A program made the translations under genes and the position numbers. Below, one piece after another: positions 1,003-62,184 of a DNA stretch of 62,401 nt (positions are counted from its first letter, which is position 1; every line of letters begins with the position of its first letter). Source of the DNA: a virus; IMG/VR virus record IMGVR_UViG_3300042885_000545, positions 1-62,401 of that record. One strand, 5' to 3'. The notes below the pieces were generated by a model, which was given only the letters and a program-made list of their open reading frames with translations, did not search any database and was not told the origin of the DNA.

Positions 1003-1010
1003 TATTTATC
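1003..1010 (+). promoter_or_regulatory. TATTTATC, late-promoter-like motif
   Basis: One mismatch to the recurring TATTTATA motif. It lies only 3 bases before the ATG at 1014, so if it is a promoter the transcript would be nearly leaderless. It falls in the divergent gap next to the helicase gene. Confidence 0.35.
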
Positions 1011-1013
1011 AAT

Positions 1014-1331
1014 ATGAACAACAAACCAATAAATCTTGACCGGGATACAAAGTTAATTAGACGATATCTAAATATATCAAAACCTGAAGGGGTCTCAAAG
1101 ATTGCGTTTGAAATAACTCCCGTAGGAGATGAGAGCGAATATTATATGAAAATAACTTATGTTGTTCCTGATGATAGTAAATATTTGAAAGCTAACGACA
1201 AAAATTTAATTCCTGTTCGTTACAGAGACGAATGGAATCATCATATAACAAAAGATTTAAAAGATTATTTTGGATTAAAAGTGTATATCAACCAATCCGG
1301 AACAAGAAACGAAAATTTTTATAATAGATAA
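1014..1331 (+). CDS. hypothetical protein, 105 aa
   Basis: I do not recognise this protein. It is a small, charged, soluble protein with no signal peptide, membrane segment or cysteine. It opens a run of five same-strand genes (1014-3737) in which the next gene starts 7 bases after its stop. Those neighbours look like neck and tail-completion components, so a small structural or assembly role is possible, but that is inferred from position only. A TATTTATC element ends 3 bases upstream of the ATG. Confidence 0.7.
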   Translation: MNNKPINLDRDTKLIRRYLNISKPEGVSKIAFEITPVGDESEYYMKITYVVPDDSKYLKANDKNLIPVRYRDEWNHHITKDLKDYFGLKVYINQSGTRNENFYNR

Positions 1332-1338
1332 AAACAAT

Positions 1339-1851
1339 ATGGATAATAAAGTACCAATTACAAGGATAGGTAAGTTCTTTGGAGCGGAGGATTTCAAGTT
1401 AGAACAAGACTTTGGGACCGAATGGTTACACGGGGATATGAACTTTACATTAGTTCTATATCGTGTTGATAGATATAAGACCAAAACGGACGATGTTTAT
1501 GGTGAGACGGTATCTGACGGTATCAAATTTTTACCACCGGTGGAGTTCAAAGGATATGTTCAAATTATGGCCCCTGAGAACAAATATTTAGGTAATTCTA
1601 AAATTGACCAAATGGAGCCGGGTAATATGAAAGTATCTGTTTATCAAAGAGATTTGGATGAGTTAGAGGTGGAGATTAGTTATGGTGATTATATCGGATA
1701 CTACGAAACAGAAGACAAAGTAAGATATTACACGGTTAATAATGATGGAAGGGTTACTTCTGACAACAAACATACTTTGGGTGGATACAAACCATTCTAT
1801 AGAACAATTATGGCGTCACCGGTTACAAATAACGAATTTAGAGGGTTATAA
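1339..1851 (+). CDS. gp14-like neck protein (tentative)
   Basis: 170 aa. Several blocks resemble T4 gp14 in order: a YRVDRYKTKTDDVYGE segment near residues 40-56 (compare the gp14 region around 'VPREYVSPDLIFGED'), then a hydrophobic/acidic block, EISYGDYIGYYE with following KVRYYTV near 112-130, and GYKPFYRTI near 148-156 (gp14 has a DPFYQLG block there). It is shorter than T4 gp14 (about 256 aa). The position fits, since the gp15-like gene and the sheath follow, as in the T4 order 13-14-15-18-19. By analogy it would sit at the head-tail neck. Its TAA overlaps the next ATG (ATAATG). The similarity was judged by eye; a structure-based comparison could overturn it. Confidence 0.45.
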   Translation: MDNKVPITRIGKFFGAEDFKLEQDFGTEWLHGDMNFTLVLYRVDRYKTKTDDVYGETVSDGIKFLPPVEFKGYVQIMAPENKYLGNSKIDQMEPGNMKVSVYQRDLDELEVEISYGDYIGYYETEDKVRYYTVNNDGRVTSDNKHTLGGYKPFYRTIMASPVTNNEFRGL

Positions 1852-2252
1852 TGAAAGTATTAATAACAGAAAATAAATTATTTGATTCAATATATTCATA
1901 TATCGAAGGAGATTTTAATAAAGACGATATTCATTGGACTTATGGTATGGATGACGGTGAGGATGGTGATTTAGTTGATTATAATGAAAATGAAAACTTA
2001 TTAATTTTCTATAATGGAGATTGGGAAGGTGAAGAAGATAGTGATGTTATTTTTTATTATTTAGAAGTAGAATATTATAGTGACGAACCATCAGCTAAAC
2101 CATTTAAAGATGATGCACCAACATTAGATGTAACAGGTGAATATTCCGAACATTTAGACTCTATGTTTGGTAACCATTGGAAGGGACCAATGAAAAAATG
2201 GTTTCAAGATAATTTTAATTTACCCGTTAAAACGGTAACAACATATTACTAA
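1851..2252 (+). CDS. acidic small protein with MKVLITE leader
   Basis: 133 aa, strongly acidic (many Asp/Glu, notably in residues 20-75) and rich in Tyr and Phe. Function not recognised. The first seven residues, MKVLITE, are identical to those of the next gene, and the first 21 bases of the two genes are identical as well. The rest of the proteins is unrelated, so this is a shared leader rather than a gene duplication. The leader ends in I-T-E, which fits the T4 prohead-protease rule (L/I)-x-E. The gene starts on the last base of the preceding stop codon and the next gene starts 2 bases after its stop, so the cluster is probably co-transcribed. Confidence 0.65.
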   Translation: MKVLITENKLFDSIYSYIEGDFNKDDIHWTYGMDDGEDGDLVDYNENENLLIFYNGDWEGEEDSDVIFYYLEVEYYSDEPSAKPFKDDAPTLDVTGEYSEHLDSMFGNHWKGPMKKWFQDNFNLPVKTVTTYY

Positions 2253-2254
2253 TA

Positions 2255-2701
2255 ATGAAAGTATTAATAACAGAATCACAAGCAAACAGAATCTTTGAAG
2301 ATGTTTCAAATGATGAAGAAAAGGATTACATCGGTAAAAAAGTTATGATTTATTATAATCTACATAAACACACTTTTTCAATAATATATAAAGGTTTAGT
2401 TGTTAATCATTCTGATTACGTCAAACTAAGTGATGTTGAGTTTAGAGTTAGACCGGGAGGAAGAGAAAAGGTAATAAAAGAGAAAAGAAAGAATGTTCAT
2501 TCATTTGTGATTGGAACATTGATGGATTATTGTAAATATCCTTGTGAAAACCTACCAACCGAACCAAATAGTAATATTGTGACTTACAACCCATACAAAT
2601 ACAACTCTTACGTTATGAAAGACACCGAAGAACCTATATATAGAGCCGGTGAGGTAGAAATGATAAATTCAAGAAACAAAATATTTATAACAAAACAATA
2701 A
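2255..2701 (+). CDS. small conserved-type phage protein with MKVLITE leader
   Basis: 148 aa. After the leader MKVLITESQANRIFEDV comes a compact domain from about residue 28 that includes KVMIYYNLHKHTFSI, a 'VRPGGREK' turn, 'EKRKNVHSFVIG' and 'DYCKYPCENLP'. From memory this resembles a small domain found alone or fused in many marine phage genomes, with no known function; I cannot confirm this here. Two cysteines sit four residues apart (CKYPC), but too few ligands are visible to claim zinc binding. It lies between the gp14-like and gp15-like genes and shares its first 21 bases with the preceding gene. Confidence 0.6.
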   Translation: MKVLITESQANRIFEDVSNDEEKDYIGKKVMIYYNLHKHTFSIIYKGLVVNHSDYVKLSDVEFRVRPGGREKVIKEKRKNVHSFVIGTLMDYCKYPCENLPTEPNSNIVTYNPYKYNSYVMKDTEEPIYRAGEVEMINSRNKIFITKQ

Positions 2702-2702
2702 A

Positions 2703-3737
2703 ATGGGTTTACCAAGTAAAATAAAGAAAAATATACCACTAACGGAGTCCAAAACTCTTTTACCAAGAAGAGAAGAACTTTTGGATAAAATCAATAAAGA
2801 CGGAACTTATCTTCCAAAATCTTTATTGCATGCCGATTTAGATAGAGGTTTTTTAGATTTTGTTAGAGATGATTTAAAAGTGGTGGTTGAGGGTAAAACA
2901 ATACCAACCGTTGATATTATTGTTACCACACAAAATTGGGCTCAGTTTACTGAAACTTGGAATTTCCAAAATATTGATAAAAACACGGAACCTCCTTTTA
3001 TTACAACAATTAGAATCCCGGAGGTTAAATTTGGGACTAACCCGGCTCTTATGTATAATATTCCAAATAGAAGACAATATTTTTACGCTCAAGTACCTAC
3101 TTGGGATGGACAAAGAAATGGGATGGATGTTTATACAATACCTCAACCCGTTCCGGTTGATATAACATATTCTGTTAAAATTATTTGTAACAGAATGAGA
3201 GAGTTAAATAAACTTAATCAGGTTATTTTAGAAAAATTTGCATCAAGACAAGCCTATGCGGTAATCAAAGGACATTACATTCCAATTGTTATGGGTGCGA
3301 TTACTGATGAATCTGTTGTTGATGTTGAGAAAAGAAAATACTACATACAAAGTTATGAATTTACAATGTTAGGGTTTTTAATTGATGAAGATGAGTTTGA
3401 AGTTTCCCCGGCAATAACAAGAGTTTTACAAGTTGTTGAAATAGAAAAAAAAACAACTAAGCGTGGTCGGAAACAAAATGACGAAACCGGTCTTGGTAGT
3501 CAAGCATTGTTTGTTGTTGGTAATAATACGTTAACACAATTGTTTAGTTACATTGTTGATATTAAAATTGGTGAAACAATAAATGTTGAATCATTTGATG
3601 TGTATATCAATGATGATTACTATGGTTCTGATTTAGAGTTAATACAAATTAACTCCGGAGACGTATTAAGGTTAAATATTGTTAAGAAAGATGACTCATT
3701 AGAATCAACAATTCAATTTATTGATAAGATACTTTAG
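2703..3737 (+). CDS. gp15-like tail sheath stabiliser / tail completion protein
   Basis: 344 aa. The middle (residues about 95-245) follows the T4 gp15 pattern: RIPEVKFGTNPALMYNIP near 100-117 (gp15 has LPRINLHLVDFSYN), then a PQPVPVDITYSVKIICNRM block near 150-168 followed by a helix (gp15: PSPIKMIYELSIFTRYEDDM), then IPIVMGAITDESVVDVEKR near 198-216 and YEFTMLGFLIDE near 223-234 (gp15: IKIVLMSAAIDE and LTFEVNGWMYP). It is longer than T4 gp15 (272 aa), with an extra C-terminal domain of about 90 residues after a basic TTKRGRK linker. Near the N-terminus, IPLTESK repeats the L/I-T-E signature of its neighbours. Its place just before the sheath gene supports a tail-terminator role. The stop overlaps by 4 bases with the convergent small gene at 3734-3898. 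Confidence 0.55.
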   Translation: MGLPSKIKKNIPLTESKTLLPRREELLDKINKDGTYLPKSLLHADLDRGFLDFVRDDLKVVVEGKTIPTVDIIVTTQNWAQFTETWNFQNIDKNTEPPFITTIRIPEVKFGTNPALMYNIPNRRQYFYAQVPTWDGQRNGMDVYTIPQPVPVDITYSVKIICNRMRELNKLNQVILEKFASRQAYAVIKGHYIPIVMGAITDESVVDVEKRKYYIQSYEFTMLGFLIDEDEFEVSPAITRVLQVVEIEKKTTKRGRKQNDETGLGSQALFVVGNNTLTQLFSYIVDIKIGETINVESFDVYINDDYYGSDLELIQINSGDVLRLNIVKKDDSLESTIQFIDKIL

Positions 3738-3898
3738 TCTTCCCCATAGATATCTTTAGTCGGTTTACATTTTTCAATAATAAGTCTTTCTAAGAACCGA
3801 TACATTTTAATACCTTTCTTTTCACAGTAAGTTTTAAGAATCTCGTGTGTCTCCACCGATATCTTTAAATTTTTAATCTTTTTGATGTCTTTATCCAT
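3734..3898 (-). CDS. small ribbon-helix-helix-like protein, 54 aa
   Basis: A minus-strand ORF starts at the ATG at 3898 and ends with TAA at 3734-3736. The protein is lysine-rich and carries a beta-strand block NLKISVETHEILKTYC (10-25) followed by a helix with KGIKMYRFLERLI (28-40). This is the usual layout of short ribbon-helix-helix (MetJ/Arc type) DNA-binding proteins: a strand that reads DNA, then two helices around a G-[IV] turn. A TATTTATA element lies on the minus strand at 3941-3934, 35 bases before the start, which supports expression. It is convergent with the gp15-like gene (4-base overlap) and divergent from the sheath gene, so its product could act on the sheath promoter region; that is speculation. 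The gene falls below the length cut-off of many gene callers. Confidence 0.65.
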   Translation of the reverse strand: MDKDIKKIKNLKISVETHEILKTYCEKKGIKMYRFLERLIIEKCKPTKDIYGED

Positions 3899-3933
3899 AA
3901 GTAGAAAAAAGGTAGAAAATAATCTCCCTAAAA

Positions 3934-3941
3934 TATAAATA
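3934..3941 (-). promoter_or_regulatory. TATTTATA motif for the 54-aa gene
   Basis: On the minus strand the sequence reads TATTTATA, 35 bases upstream of the ATG at 3898. It is preceded by C on that strand, as at several plus-strand copies. Confidence 0.5.
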
Positions 3942-3977
3942 GTTGCTACGAAGTAAAGTATTTTGATTTTTTTTTAA

Positions 3978-3985
3978 TATTTATA
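3978..3985 (+). promoter_or_regulatory. TATTTATA late-promoter-like motif of the sheath gene
   Basis: It lies 30 bases before the sheath ATG. It is followed immediately by TATAAATA (3986-3993), the T4 late-promoter octamer, so the pair forms a perfect 16-base inverted repeat. The region up to the ATG is A-rich with no Shine-Dalgarno sequence. Confidence 0.6.
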
Positions 3986-4015
3986 TATAAATAAAATTAT
4001 AAACAAAACAAACTA

Positions 4016-7000
4016 ATGGCAACAAACAGCAAAGTATTCGTATCTCCCGGGGTATATACTTCCGAAGTTGATTTAAGTTTCGTAGCACAAAGTGTGGGGG
4101 TAACCACATTAGGTATTGTTGGTGAAACACAAAAAGGACCAGCATTCGAACCTATCTTTATACGAAATTTCGATGAATTCTCAACTTTTTTTGGAGGAAC
4201 ATCCCCTGAAAAGTTTATTAATACACAAATACCGAAGTATGAAGCTTCGTATATCGCAAAATCTTATTTACAACAATCAAATCAATTGTTTGTTACAAGA
4301 ATTTTGGGATTGTCAGGATATGACGCGGGACCATCTTGGTCTTTTAGAACGATAGCGAATGTTGATAAAACAACAGTTGATTTTGACTGTTCAGGTAGTA
4401 CATATGATTTTACATCATGTGAATCTATATGTACAGGATATACGGAATATTCATTCACATTACCGTTTACCGGATGTAATAATGATATAAGTTCAGTTGT
4501 CTTTGGTGCATTTACAGGTGATGAATCGATAATAACAAATAAATTTAATGAAACTTATGAAAATTTTAACGGAACATCGTCAACAATAATTTCAGATTTC
4601 CAACAACAAGTTTTCAATGTTATTGTTTCCTCAACAACTTTATCAACTTCAGCAACCTCATTATACTGTTATGGTACAATATTAGGTGATGATTACGATA
4701 ATTTAGTTTCAATAGGTTATACAAACGTAACAAACGTATTCGACGTAAACAATGTTGATTCACATTTAGCTGATTATACTGCTCCAGAGAATGACCCTTG
4801 GTATTACGCATTATTTGATAATAATAATGGTAGTTATACAGGTAGTTCTTACTATACGGTAATCGATACTCTTGGACAAAGTTCTACATCATCAAATTGT
4901 TCATCTTTCTATTCATTTAGTGTTCTTGGTGTTGCAGGAAGTATTAATTACAATAACAGCACAATTAGTGTTGTTTTACCTTTTGCGACTTTTTCAGGAA
5001 CAAATTTATCAACTATTGTTCCAACGTTTAGTGCTTGTTGTACAGGTGTAACGGTAAATTTATCAGCACAAACTAGTAATGTATCGGTTGTTAATTTTTC
5101 AACAGGTGCTGTTACATATCTTTTAATACCTAACGATGGTAGTTCAACAGGAACATCTTTTAACGTAACCGTTGAAATACAAAATCCTTGTAACCCACTA
5201 ACATCAGGTAATACTGGAAACTATACTTCAGGTTCAATTAAAACTTGTTATACGGGTAGTGTTAGAGGTTCTGTTTATGTTTATACAGGAACATCTTATA
5301 CAGACTTTGACGATTTAATTCTTGCAACACTTCGTTCAAGAGGTATTGCGACTTATGGTGCGGGTAGTGATGGACCAACTTATCAAGTAAATGATGTGAC
5401 CGATGTAACAATGAATTGTACAGGTGGATACTCAAGTATTGGTAAAAATCCTTATTCTGAATTTGGTTTAAACATAACTGATAAGGATAATAATACATTT
5501 TTCTTTGAAACCTCATTTAGTGAGTCAGATTCTAAATATTTACCAAAAGTATTTGGTTCTTCAAACTTTGCAAAACCAAGAACTACGGTTCCATTATTTG
5601 TAGAAGAGAGATTTCAAACATTATTAAACTATGGTTATAATAAAGGTTATATTAGAGGTATTAATTGTAATTTAGTTGGATTACCAAGAGCTAATAACAG
5701 TAATAACGATATGTCTTCGATAGCGTTTTATTTAGAAAAATACCAAACACCGTCTTCCCCTTGGGTTGTATCTGAATTAAGAGGTAGTAAAGTATACAAT
5801 CTATTCAGATTCACAACAGTTTCTGATGGTGATGACGCTAACACTGAGGTTAAAATTTCAATAGCAAATATGTCATTTGGTAATTTAACTTTTGATATTT
5901 TAGTTAGAGATTTTTATGACACAGATAATAATCCTGTTGTTATTGAGAAATTCACAAATTGTTCGATGAATCCTCAGGATAATGCGTTTGTTGGACAAAA
6001 AATTGGTACTGCCGATGGAGAATACGCGTTGAACTCAAAATACATTATGGTTGAGATGAATGAGGACGCACCGATTGATGCGTTACCTTGTGGTTTCCAA
6101 GGATTTAGATTTAGAAATTACGCAACTTCTAGACCACCGTTCCCAATTTATAAAACTAAATATGATTACCCTGGAGAGGTTGTATTTGACCCACCATTTG
6201 GATTAAGTTCAGGTTCTAACTTGGCAATCCAAAGTCCGGGCGATAATGTTCGTAGAACTTACTTAGGTATTTCTACAGGATATGGTGCAGGATATGACCC
6301 TGATTTCTTCCAATATAAAGGTAAACAATTACCATTAGATTTATGTACAGCTGTGGAAGGGAATGATTGGACATATAAAACAAGAGGATTCCATATGGAT
6401 GTTAACGCATCATCAATTGTTTATCCGGGAACATCTAACCCAGAATTCTTTGTTGGTGACGCACCATTTACATCAGACCCTGATAGTGAAGTTAGTCCTT
6501 ATTACAGAATTTATTCACGTAAATTCTCATTATTAGTTCAAGGAGGATTTGATGGTTGGGATATCTATAGAGAATCTAGAACAAATACCGACACATTTAA
6601 ATTAGGTAGAAGAGGTTACTTAAACGGGGCTTGTACAAGTATACAATATCCAACGGCAACAGGATGGGGAGCATTCAAGAAAATTACTGTTGGAAAAAAT
6701 AATGTTGATTGGGCAAACACCGATTATTACGCTTACTTATTAGGACAACAAACATTCTCTAATCCTGAGGCGGTGAATATTAACTTATTTGTTACTCCGG
6801 GTATTGATTATGTTAATAATTCTGATTTAGTTGAAGATGCGATTGAGATGATTGAATTTAACAGAGCTGACTCATTATACGTTTGTACAACACCGGATAT
6901 TGATTTGTTTATGCCAACAGTAAACTTGGCAACTGATTTAATTTACCCTCAAGAGGCAATAAATAACTTAGAAACTACAGGAGTCGACTCTAACTATACC

Positions 7001-7609: not shown

Positions 7610-7617
7610 TAAATAAA

Positions 7618-7648
7618 ATTATGACCCATTGTAATAGTGGGTCATAAT
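7618..7648 (+). terminator. hairpin after the sheath gene
   Basis: ATGACCCA (7621-7628) pairs with TGGGTCAT (7638-7645). The stem extends outwards by three A-T pairs and inwards by a wobble and an A-T pair, giving about 13 bp with a 5-base loop. There is no long T run, so it may act as a processing or pausing hairpin rather than a full intrinsic terminator. Confidence 0.6.
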
Positions 7649-7666
7649 AAGCCTTAATATAAAGAT

Positions 7667-8485: not shown

Positions 8486-8487
8486 AA

Positions 8488-8495
8488 TATTTATT
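8488..8495 (+). promoter_or_regulatory. TATTTATT motif
   Basis: It lies 2 bases after the stop of the HAD gene and 153 bases before the tube gene. It could be a distal promoter for the tube transcript. The 163-base gap 8486-8648 otherwise holds AT-rich DNA and the second motif at 8599; I see no gene in it. Confidence 0.35.
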
Positions 8496-8598
8496 ATAAA
8501 ATAATTAATAAATAAAAACTATTAATATAAAAACTAGGATTTCTAGAATGATAGATTTTTTAATTCTAAAAGTCAAGAGAAAAAAATTAAATAGGTTA

Positions 8599-8606
8599 TA
8601 TTTATA
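8599..8606 (+). promoter_or_regulatory. TATTTATA motif of the tail tube gene
   Basis: Exact octamer, 42 bases upstream of the ATG at 8649. The leader between them is A-rich. Confidence 0.55.
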
Positions 8607-8648
8607 ATAAACAAGATAAAAAAATAAAAATTAAAAAACAAATAGAAA

Positions 8649-9137: not shown

Positions 9138-9160
9138 TCAATTAAAATAAAATATATTAC

Positions 9161-9189
9161 ACCCTACATTTAATTATGTGGGGTTTTTT
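9161..9189 (+). terminator. intrinsic terminator after the tube gene
   Basis: CCCTACAT (9161-9168) pairs with ATGTGGGG (9175-9182) around a TTAATT loop, and a run of six T follows at 9184-9189. This is a classic rho-independent terminator. The T run flows directly into the next TATTTATA. Confidence 0.85.
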
Positions 9190-9196
9190 ATTTATA
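9189..9196 (+). promoter_or_regulatory. TATTTATA motif directly behind the terminator
   Basis: Exact octamer that shares its first T with the terminator's T run, 43 bases before the ATG at 9240. Confidence 0.5.
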
Positions 9197-9215
9197 TAAA
9201 AAAAACATATCCTAT

Positions 9216-9223
9216 TATTTATA
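9216..9223 (+). promoter_or_regulatory. second TATTTATA motif of the chaperone gene
   Basis: Exact octamer, 16 bases before the ATG at 9240. Two copies 27 bases apart precede this gene. Confidence 0.5.
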
Positions 9224-9239
9224 ATAAAAACAAAATTAT

Positions 9240-10134: not shown

Positions 10135-10158
10135 TGATTTAAAAACTATGTTTGGTGT
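10123..10158 (+). terminator. hairpin between chaperone and tape measure
   Basis: ACACCAAAC (10123-10131) pairs with GTTTGGTGT (10150-10158). An inner TAGT/ACTA pairing extends the stem past a one-base bulge. It overlaps the last codons of the frameshift extension and touches the next TATTTATT motif. Its position just after the proposed shift region makes a second role as a translational stimulator conceivable, but it lies about 140 bases downstream of the slip site, too far for the usual kind. Confidence 0.6.
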
Positions 10159-10165
10159 ATTTATT
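10158..10165 (+). promoter_or_regulatory. TATTTATT motif of the tape measure gene
   Basis: It begins at the last base of the hairpin and ends 17 bases before the ATG at 10183. Confidence 0.45.
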
Positions 10166-10182
10166 TAGAAACACATTTAATT

Positions 10183-11928: not shown

Positions 11929-11948
11929 AATAGATTATTAATCTATTT
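11928..11948 (+). terminator. short hairpin after the tape measure gene
   Basis: AAATAGATT (11928-11936) pairs with AATCTATTT (11940-11948) around a 3-base loop, a perfect 9-bp inverted repeat. Its 3' arm overlaps the following TATTTATT, so terminator and promoter are interleaved. Confidence 0.5.
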
Positions 11949-11951
11949 ATT
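11944..11951 (+). promoter_or_regulatory. TATTTATT motif
   Basis: It ends 16 bases before the ATG at 11968 and overlaps the 3' arm of the hairpin at 11928-11948. Confidence 0.45.
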
Positions 11952-11967
11952 ATAAAAGAAAAAAAAT

Positions 11968-16881: not shown

Positions 16882-16883
16882 AA

Positions 16884-24123: not shown

Positions 24124-24147
24124 ATTAAATTTTTCTTAACTAACAGA

Positions 24148-24155
24148 TATTTATA
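24148..24155 (+). promoter_or_regulatory. TATTTATA motif
   Basis: Exact octamer, 13 bases before the ATG at 24169, in the 45-base gap after the hub gene. Confidence 0.5.
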
Positions 24156-24168
24156 TATAAAAAAGATT

Positions 24169-24393: not shown

Positions 24394-24394
24394 A

Positions 24395-25051: not shown

Positions 25052-25053
25052 TT

Positions 25054-25091: not shown

Positions 25092-25120
25092 TTGACAAAC
25101 ACACGGCTGACACTTATACT
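25092..25120 (+). promoter_or_regulatory. host-type promoter of the replication block
   Basis: TTGACA at 25092-25097 and TATACT at 25115-25120 are separated by 17 bases, matching the general sigma-70 layout. The same region also offers TTTG and TACTTTTA, close to the Bacteroidetes primary-sigma pattern (TTTG ... TAnnTTTG) with one mismatch and a slightly long spacer. There is no TATTTATA before this gene, so early or middle transcription by host polymerase is likely. Confidence 0.5.
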
Positions 25121-28592: not shown

Positions 28593-28600
28593 TATTTATT
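28593..28600 (+). promoter_or_regulatory. TATTTATT motif before the helicase gene
   Basis: It starts at the base after the TAG at 28590-28592 and ends 22 bases before the ATG at 28623. AGTGTG on its left and TACACT on its right can pair weakly. This is the only such element inside the replication block, so it may be fortuitous or may reinforce helicase and NrdBA expression late. Confidence 0.35.
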
Positions 28601-33404: not shown

Positions 33405-33430
33405 AATCACGACTTCGGTCGTGATTTTTT
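33405..33430 (+). terminator. TTCG-tetraloop intrinsic terminator after nrdA
   Basis: AATCACGAC (33405-33413) pairs with GTCGTGATT (33418-33426) around TTCG, followed by T's to 33430. It closes the replication and nucleotide block. Confidence 0.92.
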
Positions 33431-33439: not shown

Positions 33440-33447
33440 TATTTATA
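33440..33447 (+). promoter_or_regulatory. TATTTATA motif before the gp25-like gene
   Basis: Exact octamer 30 bases before the ATG at 33478 and 9 bases behind the terminator T run. Confidence 0.55.
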
Positions 33448-33466: not shown

Positions 33467-33474
33467 TATTTATA
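33467..33474 (+). promoter_or_regulatory. second TATTTATA motif, 3 bases from the start codon
   Basis: Exact octamer with only GTT between it and the ATG at 33478. Two motifs 27 bases apart recur as before the chaperone gene at 9240. Confidence 0.4.
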
Positions 33475-36756: not shown

Positions 36757-36805
36757 TTTTATCTTTTAAAAATGGTATATAAACTATTTATTAAAAAAGA
36801 TAAAA
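36757..36805 (+). repeat. inverted repeat flanking the promoter motif of the 1884-aa gene
   Basis: TTTTATCTTTT (36757-36767) and AAAAGATAAAA (36795-36805) are perfect 11-base inverted arms, with 27 bases between them that include TATTTATT. The right arm ends at the base before the ATG. It could be an operator, or a hairpin in read-through transcripts that hides the start codon. Confidence 0.4.
36785..36792 (+). promoter_or_regulatory. TATTTATT motif of the 1884-aa gene
   Basis: It ends 13 bases before the ATG at 36806 and lies inside the inverted repeat 36757-36805. Confidence 0.45.
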
Positions 36806-39800
36806 ATGTCAAAATCTTATAGAATAAGAACAAAGGTCGGTGTTGACACTTCAGTTAAAGTATTAATTGACCAAGAGTTCGAACATTTAGAAATATTATC
36901 CTTAAAAATATTACAAACAGACATCTATACTAGACAATGTGCTGATTATGGTGTTATTGTTGGACGTGTTAGTGTTAATAATGGATTTGGTGTTCCAAAT
37001 GCCAAAGTATCTATCTTCATACCTTTAGATAGTAAAGACCAAGCTGACCCAATTATTTCTGAGTTATATCCGTATAAATCATTGTTAGATAATAATGATG
37101 ATGGTTATAGATATAATTTACTACCCTATAAACCATCATATAGTGCTCACGTTCCTACCGGGACATTTTTCACTAGAACGGATGTTTTAACTAACCCAAC
37201 TTTAATTGAAGTTTACGACAAGTATTATAAATATAATGCGGTTACAAACGATAGTGGTGATTATATGATTTTTGGGGTTCCTGTTGGTGCTCATCTAATT
37301 GTTTTAGATGTTGATTTGTCTGACATTGGAGAATTTTCATTATCACCTCAAGATTTGATTAGAATGGGTCTTGCAACAGAAGCTCAAGTATCCGGAACAA
37401 ATTTTAAATCATCAAATAATTTAAGAGAATTACCACAAATTGTATCGGTAAATAGAAGTATTGAGGTTGAACCATTATGGGGACAACCTGAAATTTGTAA
37501 TTTAGGTATAACAAGAACAGATTTTGATTTAAGTAGTGAGGCGAATGTTGATATTCGACCAACATCTATTTTTATGGGTTCTATAATTTCTGACTCAGAT
37601 ACTAACGCATTAAAGTCTAATTGTAAACCAACTAACAGGTCGGGGTATCAATGTAGTTTAACTACGGGTCCCGGTGAAATATTGGCGATTAGACAAACAA
37701 TACAACAAGATTCTAACGGGTTACCTATTCTTGAAAATTTTAGTTTAGAGGGGGGTGGTAAAGTTATTGATGAAAACGGAACTTGGTTGGTAGATGTCCC
37801 AATGAATATGGATTACTATGTAACCAATGAGTTTGGAGAACAAGTTCTTTCAAATGACCCTGAGGTTGGTATCCCAACTAAAGCAAAATATAGATTTAAA
37901 GTAAAATGGTCTCAATCACCATCATTATCAGACCTTACTAAAAGAGCTTATTTTTTAGTACCAAATATTAGAGAATATAGTTCCAATCAATTTGAATCGT
38001 ATGCTTTTAGCGTTGATTGGAATGATTATGGAAATACTCAAATGATTCAAGACGCTATAAATTGTGATGATAAGTTTTACATAATGCAGTATAATAAAGT
38101 TTATACTGTATCAGAATTTATATATAATCATAGAGGGGGTAGCGGAAGTGAAAGGTATGTCGGTATTAAAAATATCTTAGAGGAATCTTGTGAAACTGAA
38201 AATAATAAATTTCCAACAAATGATGGTAATTTTAGGTTTGACATACTATACATAATTTTTATGTTTTTCAGTATAATACTTACACCGGTATTCTTTGCGT
38301 TAATATTGGTGATGCACATTTTATATTTTGTTGTGTGGTTATTAAGGCTTATAGTTATACCTGGATTAATTGTTTGGTGTGCTATTAGTATTATTAACTA
38401 CGGGATATTGATTCTTGGTTGTGTTCCATATGCTTTAGGGATGATTGCGGGGTATTTGGCTATGATAGTTATATATATAATATTAGGACTTCTTTTGGCG
38501 TATATTTTAAGGCTGTTATGGAAACTTGACTTAAAAGGGATAAAAGTTCCTATATTAACATATCCGGATTGTGACCTTTGTTCTTGTGAACAAGGACAAA
38601 GTGTTAATGAAAACCCTGACCCGGATGGTAATGATGAGGATGAAGAAAATGAATTAGTACCGTGTCCAACAATATCGTCAGACCCTAAACCAATATCACC
38701 ATTAAATGCTGGTTTAATAAGTGTTCCATTATCTACCTTTGCAACGTTTAAATTACCATCCTTTAATGCTGAGACAAATCCAAATGGGTTTCCGGGTCAA
38801 AGAAAAGTTATTTTTGCTAATGATTTTGCGGGGTATCAATTTGATAATCAATATGGGTCATCCACTATTGGAGCACCTTACTTACAAAGTGAGGTTATTG
38901 CTGTGGGTGAAGGGGGTGATAGTACATCTTTTGCGTATGATTGGTTTACTAACGCATTACCAATGGCGGATAGAATTAACTTATTTAATGTTAAAGCGAA
39001 ATATTTTAATAGTGGTACAACTAATCCGGGAGGTGGTGTTAATAGAATTAATGTTACTTTTGACGAAGCACGTAATCCGGGTAAATTTCATAAAGATAAT
39101 ACTATTGTAATATTATGTGATAAATCAACTGCTAGAAGATTAGTTGCGGGAGAAATGTTGGCTTTTCAAAATCCGACTTTTAGTAAAGACCCAAATTTAA
39201 CGGGAGGTATTAAAAATATATTTAATAACAACGCAATTACAGGAACAACATATACAGGTGATACAACGGTGACAGTTAATTACGCACATCCTAACGGTAT
39301 TAGTAGTATGTTATCAACTACTTATGATGTTAGAGTATTTGATGATGCTGGTCCATATAGTGCAAAAACAACTACAAATACCCATAAATTCCCTATTGAT
39401 ATAGAATATTTCCAAGTTATTACTGCTATGACATACAGTAATTTTAGTGGTCAATGTGTAAATACTTTACCTAATTCATTAAATAAAAAATACTTCAGAA
39501 ATGAGTCGACTTTGTTTCAATTGTTCTCAACTATTAATGGAGGAAGACGGGATTGGACGGGTACTATTTTTAACCCAAATTGTTATTATCGACCTAATGG
39601 TAACACACATCCAGACCCAATACCTTTTGGAGTTCAAAAGTATGATTCGATGAATTATGTTAGAAACCGTAATGAAAACGTTGTTGTGATATTAAATAGA
39701 GGTGTTGACCCATATACCAGTAAAATACCAATTAAATATGGTATTGGTAAACTTTTTGGACATCAAAATGAAAGTGATGTTGAGATTAGTGGTTACTATA

Positions 39801-42460: not shown

Positions 42461-42461
42461 G

Positions 42462-45180: not shown

Positions 45181-45181
45181 T

Positions 45182-46378: not shown

Positions 46379-46379
46379 T

Positions 46380-50353: not shown

Positions 50354-50356
50354 AAA

Positions 50357-53929: not shown

Positions 53930-53934
53930 TAAAT

Positions 53935-53964
53935 AAAAAAACCCCCTTAATTGGGGGTTTTTTT
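53935..53964. terminator. bidirectional terminator between convergent operons
   Basis: Seven A then CCCCC (53935-53946) pair with GGGGG then seven T (53953-53964) around TTAATT. The symmetric A and T runs let it stop transcription from both the adhesin operon (plus) and the resolvase operon (minus). Confidence 0.92.
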
Positions 53965-53965
53965 A

Positions 53966-54565: not shown

Positions 54566-54568
54566 ATG

Positions 54569-56992: not shown

Positions 56993-56996
56993 ACTG

Positions 56997-57004
56997 TATA
57001 AATA
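56997..57004 (-). promoter_or_regulatory. TATTTATA motif (minus strand)
   Basis: Exact octamer on the minus strand, 4 bases before the ATG at 56992, in the 27-base gap between two appendage genes. Confidence 0.4.
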
Positions 57005-57019
57005 TTCTGTGTTTTATTA

Positions 57020-58315
57020 TTAGTTAATAATTATTGAACAACAATCGCATCCACTAATAACCGGATTACTAATTGAGTAGTTATCGTTACTATATCCAAC
57101 AACACATTTTCCTGTTGTTGTTTTGTCAACTCTTGATGATGTAGAGATTGTTATTGTATCACTATTAGAGATTGTTAATGAACTCCAAACATCACTAATA
57201 TTTGATTGGTAAACATAATCCGTTTGACATCCTGCGGCGGTATTAACAGATTGATTAACACTATTTGAAGTGCTTGTTAATAATACTTCATCACCATTTT
57301 TATATAATAATGTTGAAGTGGTTAGTATTGATGTTCCACTATTAGGTGATGAATAGAAATTATTGTTATGTATTAAATCAAAAGTTATTGTTGCTCCGTT
57401 AGGTAACGGTGGGTTCACTACTACTGTTGTTTGATATGAATTTGCTAACGACACATTATTGTTAACCGGTTTTGTATTAGTTGTGTAAAGAGATATTGTA
57501 TACGTTGTTGATGGGATTTCAGTTTTTACTATTTCCGTACTTAAATGAACATTCCCAATTGAATCAAGAACTGCTAAAATATAAGTTCCACTACAAAGGT
57601 TTGTAAATATTGGAGATGATGAATAGGTTACACCATTATCAATTGAATAACTGAAAGGTGGGTTATCTAAATCAACATTAAAAATAATACTACCGTCACA
57701 TATACACGTAGGTTGGTTTACACTTCTTCTAAAATTACCTTGTTGTATTACGGGACAATTACCTAAAGTTTGGGTAAAGTATACTGAAACCCCCCCAACA
57801 CTCTGCCAATTACTTGGTGGGTTTGATGTTGAGTTAGTTGGATATTTTGATGAGATAACATTACCTGTTCCCCCCGGTTGATAATTATTTATTACAAATC
57901 TAGCGGGGTTCAGAGTTGCGTCCCAAGTGATTGTAATTGTTGAATTCAATTCATTATCCTTCCAAGAAGGGTATCCACCAACTAAACCATTTGGTATGAA
58001 AGTTTTATGTACAACAGTTCCTAAATAACTAGATTCAAATGATAAACAGAATGGATTATAAGTAATATTCACCGGTGGTAATAATGATAAATTGTTACCA
58101 CAATACGTATTGTAAAGGAAAATTGAGTTTGGTGTGGTGTTAGTTTTTATTGTTACGCCCGCTTGTAATAAAGGTAATGATAAACCTGTTGCTGGGGCGG
58201 CAACAGGATAAAGTGTTGCAACGGTTCCAAAGACACTATCAAGATAAATTGTGTATGGTCCCGGTGATGACGTTGTCCCCGTTATTTTTATTGTGTAATA
58301 TTTTTCTGTGCTCAT
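57020..58315 (-). CDS. appendage protein with SprB-like repeat, 431 aa
   Basis: The N-terminal domain begins with SSPGPYTIYLDS (residues 16-27), which is paralogous to SPGPFNIYLTD in the 751-aa neighbour. Residues about 205-275 (QPTCICDGSIIFNVDLDNPPFSYSIDNG in outline, then LCSGTYILAVLDSIGN) form an SprB-like repeat. The C-terminus ends with a Cys cluster (GCDCCSIII). No transmembrane segment is visible. The gene starts 3 bases after the stop of the 751-aa gene, so the two are co-transcribed. A fibre or adhesin role is inferred from the repeat and the neighbours. Confidence 0.6.
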   Translation of the reverse strand: MSTEKYYTIKITGTTSSPGPYTIYLDSVFGTVATLYPVAAPATGLSLPLLQAGVTIKTNTTPNSIFLYNTYCGNNLSLLPPVNITYNPFCLSFESSYLGTVVHKTFIPNGLVGGYPSWKDNELNSTITITWDATLNPARFVINNYQPGGTGNVISSKYPTNSTSNPPSNWQSVGGVSVYFTQTLGNCPVIQQGNFRRSVNQPTCICDGSIIFNVDLDNPPFSYSIDNGVTYSSSPIFTNLCSGTYILAVLDSIGNVHLSTEIVKTEIPSTTYTISLYTTNTKPVNNNVSLANSYQTTVVVNPPLPNGATITFDLIHNNNFYSSPNSGTSILTTSTLLYKNGDEVLLTSTSNSVNQSVNTAAGCQTDYVYQSNISDVWSSLTISNSDTITISTSSRVDKTTTGKCVVGYSNDNYSISNPVISGCDCCSIIIN

Positions 58316-58318
58316 AAA

Positions 58319-60574
58319 TTATCCGATTATATATGTTGATGATGAATATGTAACATTTCCACCTGAATATCTGTATGCTAATACATCTGGCGGTGTTGGA
58401 ACATAATTAATAATTGGGGTTGCCCATATTTCAAAACTACTAGTATCGGCAGAATTAGGGTATAATGTTGTATATTGACATAATAATGTGTTGTTGTAGA
58501 AACCCCCTTGAAAAGACCCTTCAGAACCAAGATTATTAAAGTTACATACAGAACCGGATAATGATGGTATTATTGAAGGTGATGTTCCTGAATATGGGTA
58601 TGTACTTGTTGACCAATCATTGGTAAATATTTTTTCTCCTATTGTTTGTGCTGAAAATGTGGTTGTGAGTGCTGTGATATAATATAAAAATTCAAATACG
58701 GGGGCATAATAGATACCATACCAACCAAAACTTGTATTGGCAGAAAAGTATTGATTAAATTGTGTATTCCCGGTTGAAGAATCGTTAACAACCGATAATA
58801 CCCCACTAATACGTGATACACAATCGATATCACAAGTAGAAATGGTATATCCGCTTGTGATTGTATTTGCGGTTATATTAAAAAAGTAATTTCCGCCTGA
58901 TGTTGTCCCGGTTAATACCGTTGATGATGGGTGAATTAGTGCCGCGTTTGTACCACTTTGGTCACCACAAGCATGTGGGTGATTCGTTTTTGGAAAATAC
59001 CAACCAAAATATCTATAATACCCCAAATTTGTGTTATTAGGGTTATATCCTAATGAGTTTGAAAGGTTGATGGCGGCTATCCAAGAATCGTAAAATGTTG
59101 ATATTACGGTTGATGAACCGGTAATGCTAAACACTCCTCTATTGCTACCATCAGTTAAAAATGTTTTTTTGTAAGTTATATCATTTGGGTCTGTTTTACA
59201 ACTAGTTAGGGCACCTTGAGGATATTGAAAATCATAAGTACAAACTTTATTATTATAATAAAAATCGGCACTATCATATGGTAAATTACCATTTGTGTCT
59301 GCGTATCTAATATTGTTAAATGTACCTCCAAATTGTTGTTGTGATAAAATACGTTGAGCGTCTTGAAATAATGTACTAACACCATTCAGTTCGGTGGTAT
59401 CGTAATACTTAAAATAATCCTCACTAAATAAAGTATTTGAAGAACATCCGGACACTGTAAACTTTACGTTTATTTTACAATTATTTGTAATTCCTGTTAT
59501 TGTTGAACCAATAATTTTGTATGGGTTAGTATATGCACAACTATTACAATTAAAGTTATCTAAACACGTTATAAGTAAGTCCCAATCAGTATTTGCTTCT
59601 GCGGGGATTACATCAATAATTATTTCATCACCGGGATTTCTTGTTAATCCTGTTAAACAAGTTATTTTTGTAAAATAACTTGCGGTTGCGGCTGATTTAG
59701 AGATTAAAGATGGAGTATATGCGTTGGAACTATTTGTACCAATTACCCAATTTTCCAATCCAATATCATTAAGATAACTACTACCTCTAAATGATAATTT
59801 AATTGTATCCGGATTCGCTTTACCTTGAAATTTCCAAGCAATAAAATTTGTGGTTGGAGACAACACATATGTTGATGAAACTGGTTGAGGTATTCCTTGA
59901 CTTTGTGAACTAAATGTAATGTTATGATTATAACCGCTAGCCCAATATTCAGTTTTTGTGTTAGTTTGATTAAAACAAGTTAATGGTTGTATTGTTGTTG
60001 TTGGAAGACAATTACCATCAAACAATATACTATTGGTCCCACCTGTGTTTGAAAAAGTTAACCCACTTACAATTACTTTTTGAATAATAGGGGTGTAAAT
60101 ACCTTCGGGTAAAGGTATAGAAGATATGCCCAAAAATGGGTGGGGAATATCGTATTGTCCTGAAAAAACTGAACCAAATCCGGTTCTTTTTTGTAATGTT
60201 GTTGTATCGTTTGGACCATACCAATGAATAACATAGTCCGTAATATTTTGACAAGACCCTGTTAAAAAACCACAAGACAATCTTGTTATTGTTGTTGCAG
60301 AATAGTTAGATAATCCTAAATTACAAGTTTGACATATGTTGTTATCTCTAACAGGTATTGTAAAACAATAAAGTAAGTTAACATCTTTTAAGTAAAGGGT
60401 GGTTGTTCCGGTAGGAATATTACTAAAAATAAATGGACATCCAATTGTAAGTTGATTTTTTGTTACAGAACTAAAGGGTGTTGAACTATAATCATCGGTT
60501 AAATAGATGTTAAATGGTCCCGGTGAAACGAAACTTGATGTTAGACAGGTTGCTGCTGAAAATGTTGTTGGCAT
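58319..60574 (-). CDS. large Cys/Ser/Thr-rich appendage protein, 751 aa
   Basis: Not assigned to a family beyond its N-terminal domain, which resembles that of the 431-aa neighbour (SPGPFNIYLTD at about 17-27, followed by a short Cys-containing strand). The protein is rich in Ser, Thr, Asn and Tyr with many cysteines (for example CQTCNLGLSNY near 84-94 and CNSCAYTNPY). A central region with FRGSSYLNDIGLENWVIG and later blocks such as YYRYFGWYFPKTNHPHACGD are distinctive. Composition and operon setting indicate an extracellular fibre. The gene starts 7 bases after the stop of the 220-aa gene. Confidence 0.6.
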   Translation of the reverse strand: MPTTFSAATCLTSSFVSPGPFNIYLTDDYSSTPFSSVTKNQLTIGCPFIFSNIPTGTTTLYLKDVNLLYCFTIPVRDNNICQTCNLGLSNYSATTITRLSCGFLTGSCQNITDYVIHWYGPNDTTTLQKRTGFGSVFSGQYDIPHPFLGISSIPLPEGIYTPIIQKVIVSGLTFSNTGGTNSILFDGNCLPTTTIQPLTCFNQTNTKTEYWASGYNHNITFSSQSQGIPQPVSSTYVLSPTTNFIAWKFQGKANPDTIKLSFRGSSYLNDIGLENWVIGTNSSNAYTPSLISKSAATASYFTKITCLTGLTRNPGDEIIIDVIPAEANTDWDLLITCLDNFNCNSCAYTNPYKIIGSTITGITNNCKINVKFTVSGCSSNTLFSEDYFKYYDTTELNGVSTLFQDAQRILSQQQFGGTFNNIRYADTNGNLPYDSADFYYNNKVCTYDFQYPQGALTSCKTDPNDITYKKTFLTDGSNRGVFSITGSSTVISTFYDSWIAAINLSNSLGYNPNNTNLGYYRYFGWYFPKTNHPHACGDQSGTNAALIHPSSTVLTGTTSGGNYFFNITANTITSGYTISTCDIDCVSRISGVLSVVNDSSTGNTQFNQYFSANTSFGWYGIYYAPVFEFLYYITALTTTFSAQTIGEKIFTNDWSTSTYPYSGTSPSIIPSLSGSVCNFNNLGSEGSFQGGFYNNTLLCQYTTLYPNSADTSSFEIWATPIINYVPTPPDVLAYRYSGGNVTYSSSTYIIG

Positions 60575-60581
60575 ATATGTT

Positions 60582-61244
60582 TTAAGTTATATCAAATGTG
60601 TATCCGGACATTACCGTAGGAAGACATTCTTCCACAAAAGTTTCTTCTATACTAGCACCAAACGTGCAAATTTTTGGTGTGAATATTTCACAAACTGTTG
60701 TTGCCGTGTAATCACCATAAAAATCAACCGTAGTTGCGGTGTATGAACCATTTCCAACCATTTCAAGTGCTGGTGAGACATTTCCGTTATTCAACCAAGT
60801 GACGGTATATGGGGCGGTTCCTCCCGATATTGATACCGAGACTTCGCCATCTTCGAGACCCCAAACTGATGGTGGAGAACTTTCACATACTACACTCATT
60901 GGTAAAATTGTTACAATTCCACATTCGTTTTGATATCCTATGATTGTAGGGGGTACAACAACGGGTGGTGTATAACAAGGAAATAAAATAATACATTGAT
61001 TACAACTATATGAAATAAATATTGGAGGAGTTGAGGATACGTTTTTTAATGGTATAGGCGGGTTTGTGATAACGGTGTTTGAACTACCACTATATGTTAC
61101 GCATCCTGAGTATGAACCAATAACAAGTCCGTATGTTGTTCCAACAGTATCTGTGAAACCATTCCAAGGCACAAACGGGTTAGAGTTATTTGGAACCCCA
61201 AAAACCTTTGTTCTATCACAGCAAGAAGTAAAGTAATATATCAT
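60582..61244 (-). CDS. appendage protein with SprB-like domain, 220 aa
   Basis: The first half is Pro/Cys-rich (MIYYFTSCCDRTK at the start; CIILFPCYTPPVVVPP near 86-101). Residues about 118-190 read like one SprB-type repeat: CESSPPSVWGLEDGEVSV, SISGGTAPYTVTWLNNG and a following G-SYTATTV strand. It leads the minus-strand appendage operon (61244 to 53966), preceded by a TATTTATA element 19 bases upstream. It could be a small tip or adaptor protein for the fibres. Confidence 0.6.
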   Translation of the reverse strand: MIYYFTSCCDRTKVFGVPNNSNPFVPWNGFTDTVGTTYGLVIGSYSGCVTYSGSSNTVITNPPIPLKNVSSTPPIFISYSCNQCIILFPCYTPPVVVPPTIIGYQNECGIVTILPMSVVCESSPPSVWGLEDGEVSVSISGGTAPYTVTWLNNGNVSPALEMVGNGSYTATTVDFYGDYTATTVCEIFTPKICTFGASIEETFVEECLPTVMSGYTFDIT

Positions 61245-61263
61245 TATACAAGTTTTATTTTAC

Positions 61264-61271
61264 TATAAATA
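61264..61271 (-). promoter_or_regulatory. TATTTATA motif of the minus-strand appendage operon
   Basis: Exact octamer on the minus strand, 19 bases before the ATG at 61244. Confidence 0.55.
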
Positions 61272-61336
61272 ATCTAAAGTTTGATTTTATTAAAATATAA
61301 TTGACATTTGTTGTTAATAAATGGTGAGGTAGTTGA

Positions 61337-61344
61337 TATTTATA
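61337..61344 (+). promoter_or_regulatory. TATTTATA motif of the 60-aa gene
   Basis: Exact octamer on the plus strand, 3 bases before the ATG at 61348, divergent from the minus-strand motif at 61264. Confidence 0.4.
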
Positions 61345-61347
61345 GAT

Positions 61348-61530
61348 ATGAAACTTATAGACACAATATCAAATGTTGTTACTGAGGCTAAAAATGTCTA
61401 CGAAACGGCTTGTGACAAAGGTGTTCCTGAGAAGGAACTTGATAGATTAGAAAAAAATTACTACGAATCCTTAAAACTTCTAAGGATATATGAAAATTTA
61501 GGTAAGAGAGAAAATAAACCTATTGATTAA
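61348..61530 (+). CDS. small helical hypothetical protein, 60 aa
   Basis: A short plus-strand gene between minus-strand appendage genes. The product is charged and helical (EAKNVYETACDKGVPEKELDRLEKN in outline, followed by YYESLKLLRIYE), compatible with a two-helix hairpin. It begins MKLIDTISNVVTEA, loosely like the MK-x-LI-x-E leader of the genes at 1851 and 2255. I place the start at ATG 61348; a TTG at 61333 in the same frame would begin before the promoter motif. Its stop overlaps the stop of the convergent 212-aa gene by 4 bases. Function unknown. Confidence 0.55.
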   Translation: MKLIDTISNVVTEAKNVYETACDKGVPEKELDRLEKNYYESLKLLRIYENLGKRENKPID

Positions 61531-62165
61531 TAAATTTTAGTAAGTGTAAAATTTCTTGAAAATATTTGATTTCCCGCATTAGTGGTATTCCATTGGACAT
61601 TCACCGATAATGTGTTGATTATTGTGGTGTCAAATGTCGTATTATTAATCTCACTTAATGGATATCCTTCATAGGTAAGTCCAGAATCTTTAAGGTAGGA
61701 GAATAGTCCACCGGATGATATTGAAGCAACGGTGGTTCCCCCGATTTGTCTTATCGTGAAATATAGTGTTAATAACCAAGGCTTTGAGGTTGAGGTATCC
61801 AAATCTATTACTCCTGTATCAATGAGTAATGTCCCACCAGTTGTTCTAACGTGAACGTGGATTGTTGCGGTGTTAATGCAAGACAAAACGCCATCGAATG
61901 ATGCTTGAAACGAATCACCAACTCTGAAACTATTTGCAGGAACAGACAAAGTCCCAACACCCGGTCCTATTACACTAGTCTCGACAGTGGTTGCGGATAC
62001 CGTAGCGCTATCACCTGTTTGGGCAAATAAACCATATGCCAACGGAAACGGTGTTAATGTTGATTGTTTTATTTTATATGTTGTTCCCGAAAGTTCAACA
62101 GCATATTCTGCATTTGAGGTTGTAGCGGTTAATTCGGGTAATCCTGATATTGGTAAATCTGGCAT
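61527..62165 (-). CDS. tail fibre-like protein, 212 aa
   Basis: The N-terminus (ISGLPELTATTSNAEYAVEL, residues 6-25, then TTYKI) is the short 'I..LP.L......Y.....G..YK.' module often found at the start of phage tail fibre and appendage proteins. The rest (about 45-205) is a beta-sandwich-like domain with TATIHVHVRTTGGTLLIDTG and WLLTLYFTIRQIGG, of the TNF- or C1q-like type used for fibre heads. It has its own TATTTATA element 11 bases upstream. Likely a short side fibre or head decoration. Confidence 0.6.
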   Translation of the reverse strand: MPDLPISGLPELTATTSNAEYAVELSGTTYKIKQSTLTPFPLAYGLFAQTGDSATVSATTVETSVIGPGVGTLSVPANSFRVGDSFQASFDGVLSCINTATIHVHVRTTGGTLLIDTGVIDLDTSTSKPWLLTLYFTIRQIGGTTVASISSGGLFSYLKDSGLTYEGYPLSEINNTTFDTTIINTLSVNVQWNTTNAGNQIFSRNFTLTKIY

Positions 62166-62176
62166 ATCTTTTTATT

Positions 62177-62184
62177 TATAAATA
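62177..62184 (-). promoter_or_regulatory. TATTTATA motif of the 212-aa gene
   Basis: Exact octamer on the minus strand, 11 bases before the ATG at 62165. It overlaps a plus-strand TATTTATA (62173-62180) that faces no gene, because the sequence is partly self-complementary. Confidence 0.5.

Follow-up and report, generated by a model that had tools for sequence, protein, structure and literature searches.

A directional TATTTAT(A/T) element before genes of a lake-virus clade as a probable phage-specific promoter, with its candidate sigma factor

What reads the short octamer that stands, in one direction, before genes on both strands of the virus record IMGVR_UViG_3300042885_000545? The stretch analysed here (the window) is the whole record, positions 1 to 62,401. 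It is AT-rich, is probably a fragment of a virus genome, and encodes tail sheath, tail tube and baseplate proteins, SSB, a UvsX-like protein, a DnaB-like helicase and ribonucleotide reductase. An earlier note on this DNA had listed 17 copies of the octamer TATTTATA or its last-base variants TATTTATT and TATTTATC. It had proposed a phage-specific promoter, i.e., the T4 late-promoter octamer TATAAATA turned round, read by a gp55-like or otherwise unusual sigma factor. We conclude that the shared element TATTTAT is almost certainly a promoter. The overall explanation, a phage -10 promoter lacking a -35 element, read by a phage sigma factor and used mainly late, is probable. For the lake phages of this large group, which are known here from metagenomes alone, it would yield a promoter code together with the predicted start point and a candidate sigma factor, and their transcription units could become predictable from sequence.

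All 17 copies (13 on the plus strand, 4 on the minus strand) were recovered, with gaps of 3 to 42 bases to an ATG, and an 18th lies at 2682-2689 (+, TATTTATA), 21 nucleotides (nt) upstream of gene 2703 and within the 3' end of the preceding gene. The raw count of TATTTATW on both strands of the window was ordinary (41, against 35.6 +/- 6.0 in shuffles). The signal is carried by position and direction alone: 18 of the 49 TATTTAT sites of the window sit 8-60 nt before one of the 40 listed starts, and each of 20 other arrangements of the same letters has at most five such sites. TATTTAT occurred in 13 of the 19 upstream intergenic regions of the window (at least 12 nt long; 39 genes), against a mean of 1.4 and a maximum of 5 in 500 dinucleotide shuffles, and TATAAATA in three of them (shuffles: mean 0.9, maximum 5). 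An unbiased ranking of 7-mers placed TATTTAT first in these regions. In the coding DNA of the window the element was balanced (14 sense, 12 antisense).

We then turned to relatives. A scan of IMG/VR with the tube protein confirmed a tube relative in at least 598 stretches, of which 80 were kept as loci. One of them, the near-complete contig G001 (322,372 bases, GC 34.0%, 92% coding), served as the main comparison genome, and the 79 further loci, a sample centred on tail genes, were counted apart. TATTTAT was found in 102 of the 199 upstream regions of G001 (mean 14.7 and maximum 25 in 200 shuffles), where it again ranked first among 7-mers, and in 240 of 389 upstream regions of the 79 loci, compared with 7.7% of shuffled regions; TATAAATA was found in 34 of these 389. 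The coding DNA of G001 was unbalanced (73 sense, 35 antisense), perhaps because some predicted promoters lie within the ends of preceding genes. Counts by orientation against shuffled controls thus bear out a directional motif before genes on both strands, in the sense that upstream placement is far above shuffles.

The box is also conserved before orthologous genes. It lies within 110 nt upstream of the tube gene in all 79 testable relatives, many of them near-identical (one more locus was too short), and in 56 of 57 unique ortholog upstream regions of this gene. For the sheath gene (4016), every one of the 31 unique ortholog regions has it, at 38-46 nt, as do all 29 for gene 11968, at 20-24 nt. 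Window genes from 24169 onward have at most one ortholog, in G001. Three operon-internal genes have the box in 0/12 (2255), 0/14 (17200) and 2/24 (16884) ortholog upstream regions. These data bear on the idea that the box is an element of the mRNA, either a signal for translation initiation or the T-rich tail of a terminator, which would explain its place near start codons and sometimes right after a terminator hairpin. However, its distance to the ATG ranges from 11 to more than 50 nt and is specific to the gene, and the operon-internal genes, which need translation signals too, have it rarely or never. Moreover, in the two window stretches scanned for hairpins, holding 14 of the 18 sites, ten sites are not behind a predicted hairpin. 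Only four lie within 60 nt after a predicted terminator, behind two hairpins (9161-9184 and 33405-33426), a placement that the earlier note had called usual. An mRNA element is extremely unlikely. The promoter reading is strongly supported by enrichment, direction, conservation and spacing.

The promoter lacks a recognisable -35 element. When the 104 G001 sites were aligned, columns -45 to -17 did not exceed 0.10 bits; a weak A/T preference was seen at -16 to -14, and no column from -45 to -2 was above 0.12 bits. In many relatives (L009-L088, by eye), a conserved AAAGTAAATAGAAA-like stretch precedes the tube-gene box by about 10-35 nt. We considered it as a general second element and rejected it, because just one of the 29 copies of GT[AC]AA[TG]AG in G001 stands within the 50 nt upstream of a box.

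The spacing between box and ATG was the most unusual feature of this promoter and had gone unnoticed in the earlier note. No site lies at 8-10 nt; a peak at 11-13 nt is followed by a trough at 14-18 nt and a second peak at 19-25 nt. The counts at 8-10, 11-13, 14-18 and 19-30 nt were 0, 33, 5 and 51 in G001, and 0, 32, 4 and 100 in the 79 other loci, without the sites nearer than 8 nt, of which G001 has two (both 5 nt from the ATG) and the other loci one (7 nt). As a share of the sites at 8-60 nt, the 11-13 class, whose mRNAs would be leaderless, makes 33/104 in G001, 32/247 in the other loci and 4/18 in the window. The four window sites are TATTTATC at 1003-1010 (+, 11 nt before ATG 1014) and TATTTATA at 33467-33474 (+, 11 nt before ATG 33478), 56997-57004 (-, 12 nt before ATG 56992) and 61337-61344 (+, 11 nt before ATG 61348, a 60-aa open reading frame, ORF). 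The G001 orthologs of 33478 (a gp25-like wedge protein) and 56992 both have their box at 12 nt.

The host-type box provides a ruler for this distance. In Flavobacterium psychrophilum, the TAnnTTTG box spans -12 to -5 (PMC9723704), and therefore an ATG 12 nt away lies at the start point. In G001, the ATG is exactly 12 nt away in 9 of the 26 TAnnTTTG boxes within 8-30 nt. Combined with the spacing of TATTTAT, this places the predicted RNA start 11-13 nt downstream of the first T of the box. We infer a shared register for TATTTAT and TAnnTTTG, with leaders that are either absent or of about 8 nt and more, those of 1-5 nt being avoided. At the sites with leaders, A predominates at positions 11-13 (51, 47 and 50 of 62). 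Judging from these distances, the leaderless class is very likely real.

Leaderless phage transcripts as such are already known; a remark in PMC5312081 describes them as frequent. The share predicted here (33 of 104 sites in G001) contrasts with the 5.5% of leaderless mRNAs in F. psychrophilum (PMC9723704), and in F. johnsoniae leaders exceed 10 nt in 87% of the transcripts with a probable promoter (PMC6847099). The geometry resembles that of the TA-led class of leaderless bacterial genes (PMC3160421), in which a TA box stands some 12 bp ahead of the start codon. That box is the housekeeping -10 box, whereas the one here is phage-specific.

Several observations weigh against the overall explanation. 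Among boxed window genes, 2703 and 9240 are weakly conserved in this respect (4/29 and 13/42 ortholog upstream regions), and three unboxed window genes have boxed homologs (1339 in 22/25, 1851 in 3/8, 7667 in 16/44). The gene starts of the relatives are our own ORF calls, taken at the longest ATG, and the binomial figures for spacing treat related sites as independent. A replication gene, that of the DnaB-like helicase (28623; TATTTATT at 28593-28600, +, 30 nt upstream), carries the box, as does its G001 counterpart; the motif is hence not restricted to the structural units that the earlier note had named. Finally, the complete record of phage Mel-JY01 (PP395634; L219:8764-9534, L200) has the motif in 26 of 115 upstream regions (shuffles 6.7, maximum 13) without any site at 11-13 nt, which ties the leaderless class to this clade rather than to the motif. 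In Mel-JY01 the box is mostly 20-60 nt before the ATG, and many leaders have GGAG-like sequences (by eye).

When would this promoter be used? In G001, the Bacteroidota-type box TAnnTTTG marks a second, mostly separate promoter class: among 324 genes, 96 have TATTTAT only, 32 TAnnTTTG only, 6 both and 190 neither. The two boxes resemble each other in their initial TA and in the spacing to the likely start point; they differ in sequence, and TATTTAT does not itself match TAnnTTTG, the box of the Bacteroidota sigma-A promoter (TTTG/TAnnTTTG). Between 160 and 300 kb of G001, 27 genes have TATTTAT and one has TAnnTTTG, compared with 75 and 37 elsewhere (p 0.0008). We picked proteins by hand from both classes. 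Of ten led by TATTTAT, four matched a terminase, a head protease, a head-tail adaptor and a wedge protein, one was endolysin-like and five had no match. Of nine led by TAnnTTTG, two matched DNA methyltransferases, one weakly a helicase, one a peptidase (its gene carries both boxes) and one a family of unknown function; the remaining four had no match, and a tenth protein queried alongside was the RpoD-like sigma described below.

A further group of genes concerns small proteins. Many of them (G001 37247-37621 and 39107-39478 on L097; window 1851-2252 and 2255-2701) share an N-terminal tag, e.g., MKKVIRLTESDLVRLVKQVINE, that ends in an I/LxE-like site. This ending is reminiscent of the capsid-targeting sequences of T4, and the tagged proteins are candidates for packaged, injected proteins. 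TATTTAT precedes 19 of the 26 tagged G001 genes against 83 of the 298 others (Fisher p 6.6e-6), and TAnnTTTG none of the 26.

The TATTTAT class is likely to be mainly late, an assignment that comes from gene content and from the published metatranscriptomes of a resembling group, the bS21-encoding freshwater Bacteroidetes phages (PMC9723584). These phages have genomes of 293-331 kb, a GC content of 31.0-33.7% and a coding density of 91.1-94.9%; G001 is alike in size and coding density, and its GC lies just above their range (PMC9723584). G001 is also like that group in having its bS21 gene reversed amid the orthologs of terminase, portal-like, head protease and capsid genes. The G001 clade and that group are probably one, and these lake viruses probably infect Bacteroidetes. 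Tenacibaculum phage pT24 was dropped as a relative, its ribonucleotide reductase alone having matched. According to the published RNA profiles, this region is no single operon; two pairs of genes may belong together, the capsid gene with its upstream neighbour and the head protease gene with its downstream neighbour (PMC9723584). G001 has boxes before the protease gene and before the gene preceding the capsid gene, and none before the capsid gene or the gene following the protease.

From these elements we propose the following mechanism. TATTTAT(A/T) would be the -10 element of a phage-specific promoter class working without a -35 element. Host core RNA polymerase with a phage sigma factor, most likely the gp55-like protein of the clade, would open the DNA at the box, and the RNA would start about 11-13 nt after its first T. 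A start codon at this point would give a leaderless mRNA; otherwise the mRNA would have an A-rich leader, usually of at least 8 nt. This class would serve mainly head, tail and packaging genes and the candidate packaged proteins, i.e., late genes, and the early and host-takeover genes would be served by the host sigma-A box TAnnTTTG. We found no description of a TATTTATA promoter in the open-access literature searched (titles and openings of abstracts), and the main text of PMC9723584, leaving aside its supplements, makes no mention of TATTTA, sigma or motif.

The obvious comparison is with the late promoter of T4 and its proteins gp55, gp33 and gp45. Both systems use one -10-like octamer, with no -35 element, for virion genes of either strand. 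The clade likewise encodes a gp55-like sigma, and the first T of its box would lie about 11-13 nt from the likely start, against -13 in T4 (PMC2988020). The orientation differs, as the earlier note had proposed, and this difference is strongly supported. A 49-kb stretch of the T4 late region has 12 TATAAATA sites directed at genes; each of its five sense TATTTATA sites faces a divergent gene of the opposite strand. In G001, 54 TATTTATA sites point at genes, and only seven have an opposite start nearby. We therefore rejected the possibility that the box is a T4-type promoter for the other strand, since 47 of these 54 sites have no opposite start within 60 nt. The leaderless class is another difference: the nearest of the 12 T4 sites is 22 nt from its ATG, whereas the clade has sites at 11-13 nt.

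Two observations blur this contrast with T4. The T4 late region also over-represents TATTTAT (7 of 24 upstream regions, shuffles 1.1), an excess explained by divergent pairs for the five TATTTATA sites, i.e., most of the seven. In G001, TATAAATA is over-represented too, in 19 of 199 upstream regions (mean 4.9 and maximum 13 in shuffles), far from the 102 of 199 of TATTTAT, and it is thus not the late-gene promoter of G001. Of the 14 TATAAATA sites within 60 nt of a start, seven face a divergent gene, four overlap TATTTATAAATA (by eye) and three remain. A further difference from T4 is the lack of a match to gp45: neither a T4-type nor a bacterial sliding clamp (PF02916, PF02767) was matched in the seven records searched, although divergent clamps may escape both models. 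The earlier idea of a T4 octamer turned round is not required: TATTTATA differs from TATAAATA in its two central bases (T4 positions -10 and -9), and its distance to the start point is probably almost that of T4.

The gp55-like sigma foreseen in the earlier note does exist in the clade, as judged from fold and profile matches, but the 62-kb window fragment had no sigma match. ORFs of this kind were found in 6 of 12 records by a phrog_234 search (weak matches, E 1.8e-4 to 5.3e-3). They are 234-250 aa long, adjoin an apparent glycosyltransferase gene (by eye), and have 250 relatives in IMG/VR, of which 80 were kept. The protein is longer than T4 gp55 and only remotely similar to it, and its C-terminus, where a sliding-clamp motif would be expected in a gp55, is unlike that of T4 (by eye). 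A Pfam scan gave nothing above cut-off, and an hmmsearch of its profile against PDB sequences gave only four weak MepR-type matches (E 0.17-0.43).

Structure was more informative. An AlphaFold2 model built from 36 sequences had a mean pLDDT (predicted local distance difference test score) of 74. Its 12 best Foldseek rows were sigma factors or a polymerase-complex chain fitting sigma by title and length; those named RPSD and RPSH we take to be SigD and SigH. In a structure comparison, T4 gp55 (7d7c_F) matched residues 26-132 of the model with Z 9.3 (102 residues, root-mean-square deviation 3.0); region 2 of other sigma factors, sigma-E among them, scored equally. All 50 rows shown fitted sigma by the same criteria, although, as the tool cautions, a Z of this size can arise by chance between helical folds. 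On this model, the protein appears to have the fold of sigma region 2. With a profile including homologs from Mel-JY01 and from LR756508, hhalign against six gp55 sequences gave E 3.7e-5 and a probability of 71%.

Does this protein read the TATTTATA box? We lean towards this view. Mel-JY01 has a homolog (31% identity over 42% of the sigma, E 1e-5) and, in its complete record, no Sigma70_r2 match at E 0.1 or below; its motif thus favours the gp55-like protein as reader. Other results tell against this assignment. Single-sequence PHROG matches to gp55 were weak (hmmscan, E 0.0017 to 0.13), no Foldseek E-value was below 0.001, and an earlier, narrower profile comparison to gp55 gave a probability of 15%. 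LR756508 has a 25%-identical sigma homolog, yet TATTTAT occurs in none of 36 upstream regions in 42 kb of it, where no convincing replacement motif was found either. This speaks against a tight coupling of sigma and box, or the box of LR756508 has changed.

The base contacts of T4 gp55 offer a way to think about such changes. In T4, A-12 stacks on Y97, A-9 touches N13 and H95, and A-8 bonds T99 (PMC7892883). In the hhalign register, Y97 corresponds to Y109 in 36 of 36 sequences, H95 to Y (36/36), T99 to G (36/36) and N13 to V (33/36). One hypothesis from this alignment would be that Y97 is kept where its base is kept, and that N13 and H95 have changed where A-9 becomes T. T99 does not fit, as it has changed to G though its base stays A, and at the places of H95 and T99 both homologs, from Mel-JY01 and from LR756508, have F and S, with the motif in only one of the two phages. 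The residue-to-base hypothesis suggests that gp55-type sigmas may have shifted specificity along with their promoters.

The clade has a second phage sigma factor. This RpoD-like protein of 266 aa is encoded in G001 at 301298-302098 (L206:1321-2121), complete, and matches a PHROG sigma family with E 3.6e-53. Its gene is directly behind one with the host box TATCTTTG, and it could thus be made early. Sigma70_r2 matches over the cut-off were also present in G005, G012, G013, G015 and G016. These make six of 19 records, window included, most records being fragments, and G013 and G016 look like one virus. That this protein reads the promoter and the gp55-like protein does something else is nevertheless rather unlikely: Mel-JY01 has the motif without such a match, and the RpoD-like protein has a region-4-like end (by eye), whereas the promoter shows no -35 element.

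The box could also be read by a sigma factor of the host, either an alternative one or sigma-A redirected by a phage protein, as happens with phages of other hosts. If the two boxes are aligned by the start codon, the TA of TAnnTTTG falls on the first two bases of TATTTATA. This is very unlikely here: the alternative-sigma motifs SM4-6 of F. psychrophilum, as given in the part of PMC9723704 used, are unlike TATTTATA, and the motif recurs in Mel-JY01, recorded from a host of another phylum (Microcystis elabens). The upstream regions of Mel-JY01 are also enriched in the Bacteroidota-type TAnnTTTG (20 of 115, shuffles 6.7, maximum 13), and its recorded host may deserve doubt despite the GGAG in its leaders. 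A phage sigma, most likely the gp55-like one, remains our preferred reader. The phages phiEco32 and 7-11 are unrelated to this clade and have a different box. Their phage sigma factors are, as proposed here, sigma-like proteins in phages using the host polymerase (PMC8948821).

The leaderless class is relevant to the presence of bS21 in these phages. A bS21 match was found in four of the seven records searched. At the conserved start, the box before bS21 is exact at 12 nt in one of the four (G001) and has one mismatch at 12, 13 and 14 nt in the other three, G002 among them. In Bacteroidia ribosomes, bS21 helps to hide the anti-Shine-Dalgarno sequence (PMC9976891). The late programme might thus couple the gp55-like sigma to mRNAs that are leaderless or have near-minimal leaders, with phage bS21, itself made from a leaderless promoter, remodelling Bacteroidota ribosomes to favour them; we hold this to be a doubtful speculation.

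The remaining window sites all have longer distances to the ATG. Those of the tail genes are TATTTATA at 3978-3985 (+, 38 nt before the sheath gene 4016), at 8599-8606 (+, 50 nt before the tube gene 8649) and at 9216-9223 (+, 24 nt before the baseplate-hub gene 9240). The latter gene has a second box at 9189-9196 (+, 51 nt upstream), right after the terminator-like hairpin 9161-9184. Gene 33478 also has a second TATTTATA at 33440-33447 (+, 38 nt upstream), after the hairpin 33405-33426. In both pairs the tandem boxes are 27 nt apart, and before 33478 one would yield a leaderless and the other a leadered mRNA. TATTTATT occurs on the plus strand at 10158-10165 (25 nt before 10183), 11944-11951 (24 nt before 11968) and 36785-36792 (21 nt before 36806), and TATTTATA at 24148-24155 (+, 21 nt before 24169). 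On the minus strand, TATTTATA is found at 3934-3941 (43 nt before a small ORF starting at 3898), 61264-61271 (27 nt before ATG 61244) and 62177-62184 (19 nt before ATG 62165). The SSB gene (25150) has no motif, in agreement with the earlier note, and is preceded by a host-type promoter candidate, TTGACA-17-TATACT at 25092-25120 (+); in a scan of the window stretches, matches to the standard sigma-70 promoter were no commoner than in shuffles.

Two further features lie at the ends of the window. On the minus strand, 1-990 encodes the N-terminal portion of an ORF resembling SNF2 helicases (DDMGLGKT motif, by eye), divergent from gene 1014 and cut at the record edge. At the right end (62200-62401), short tandem GTTGGAGT/GGTGTCGGTGTTGGAGT-like repeats (by eye) are possibly a piece of a repeat gene truncated at the other edge.

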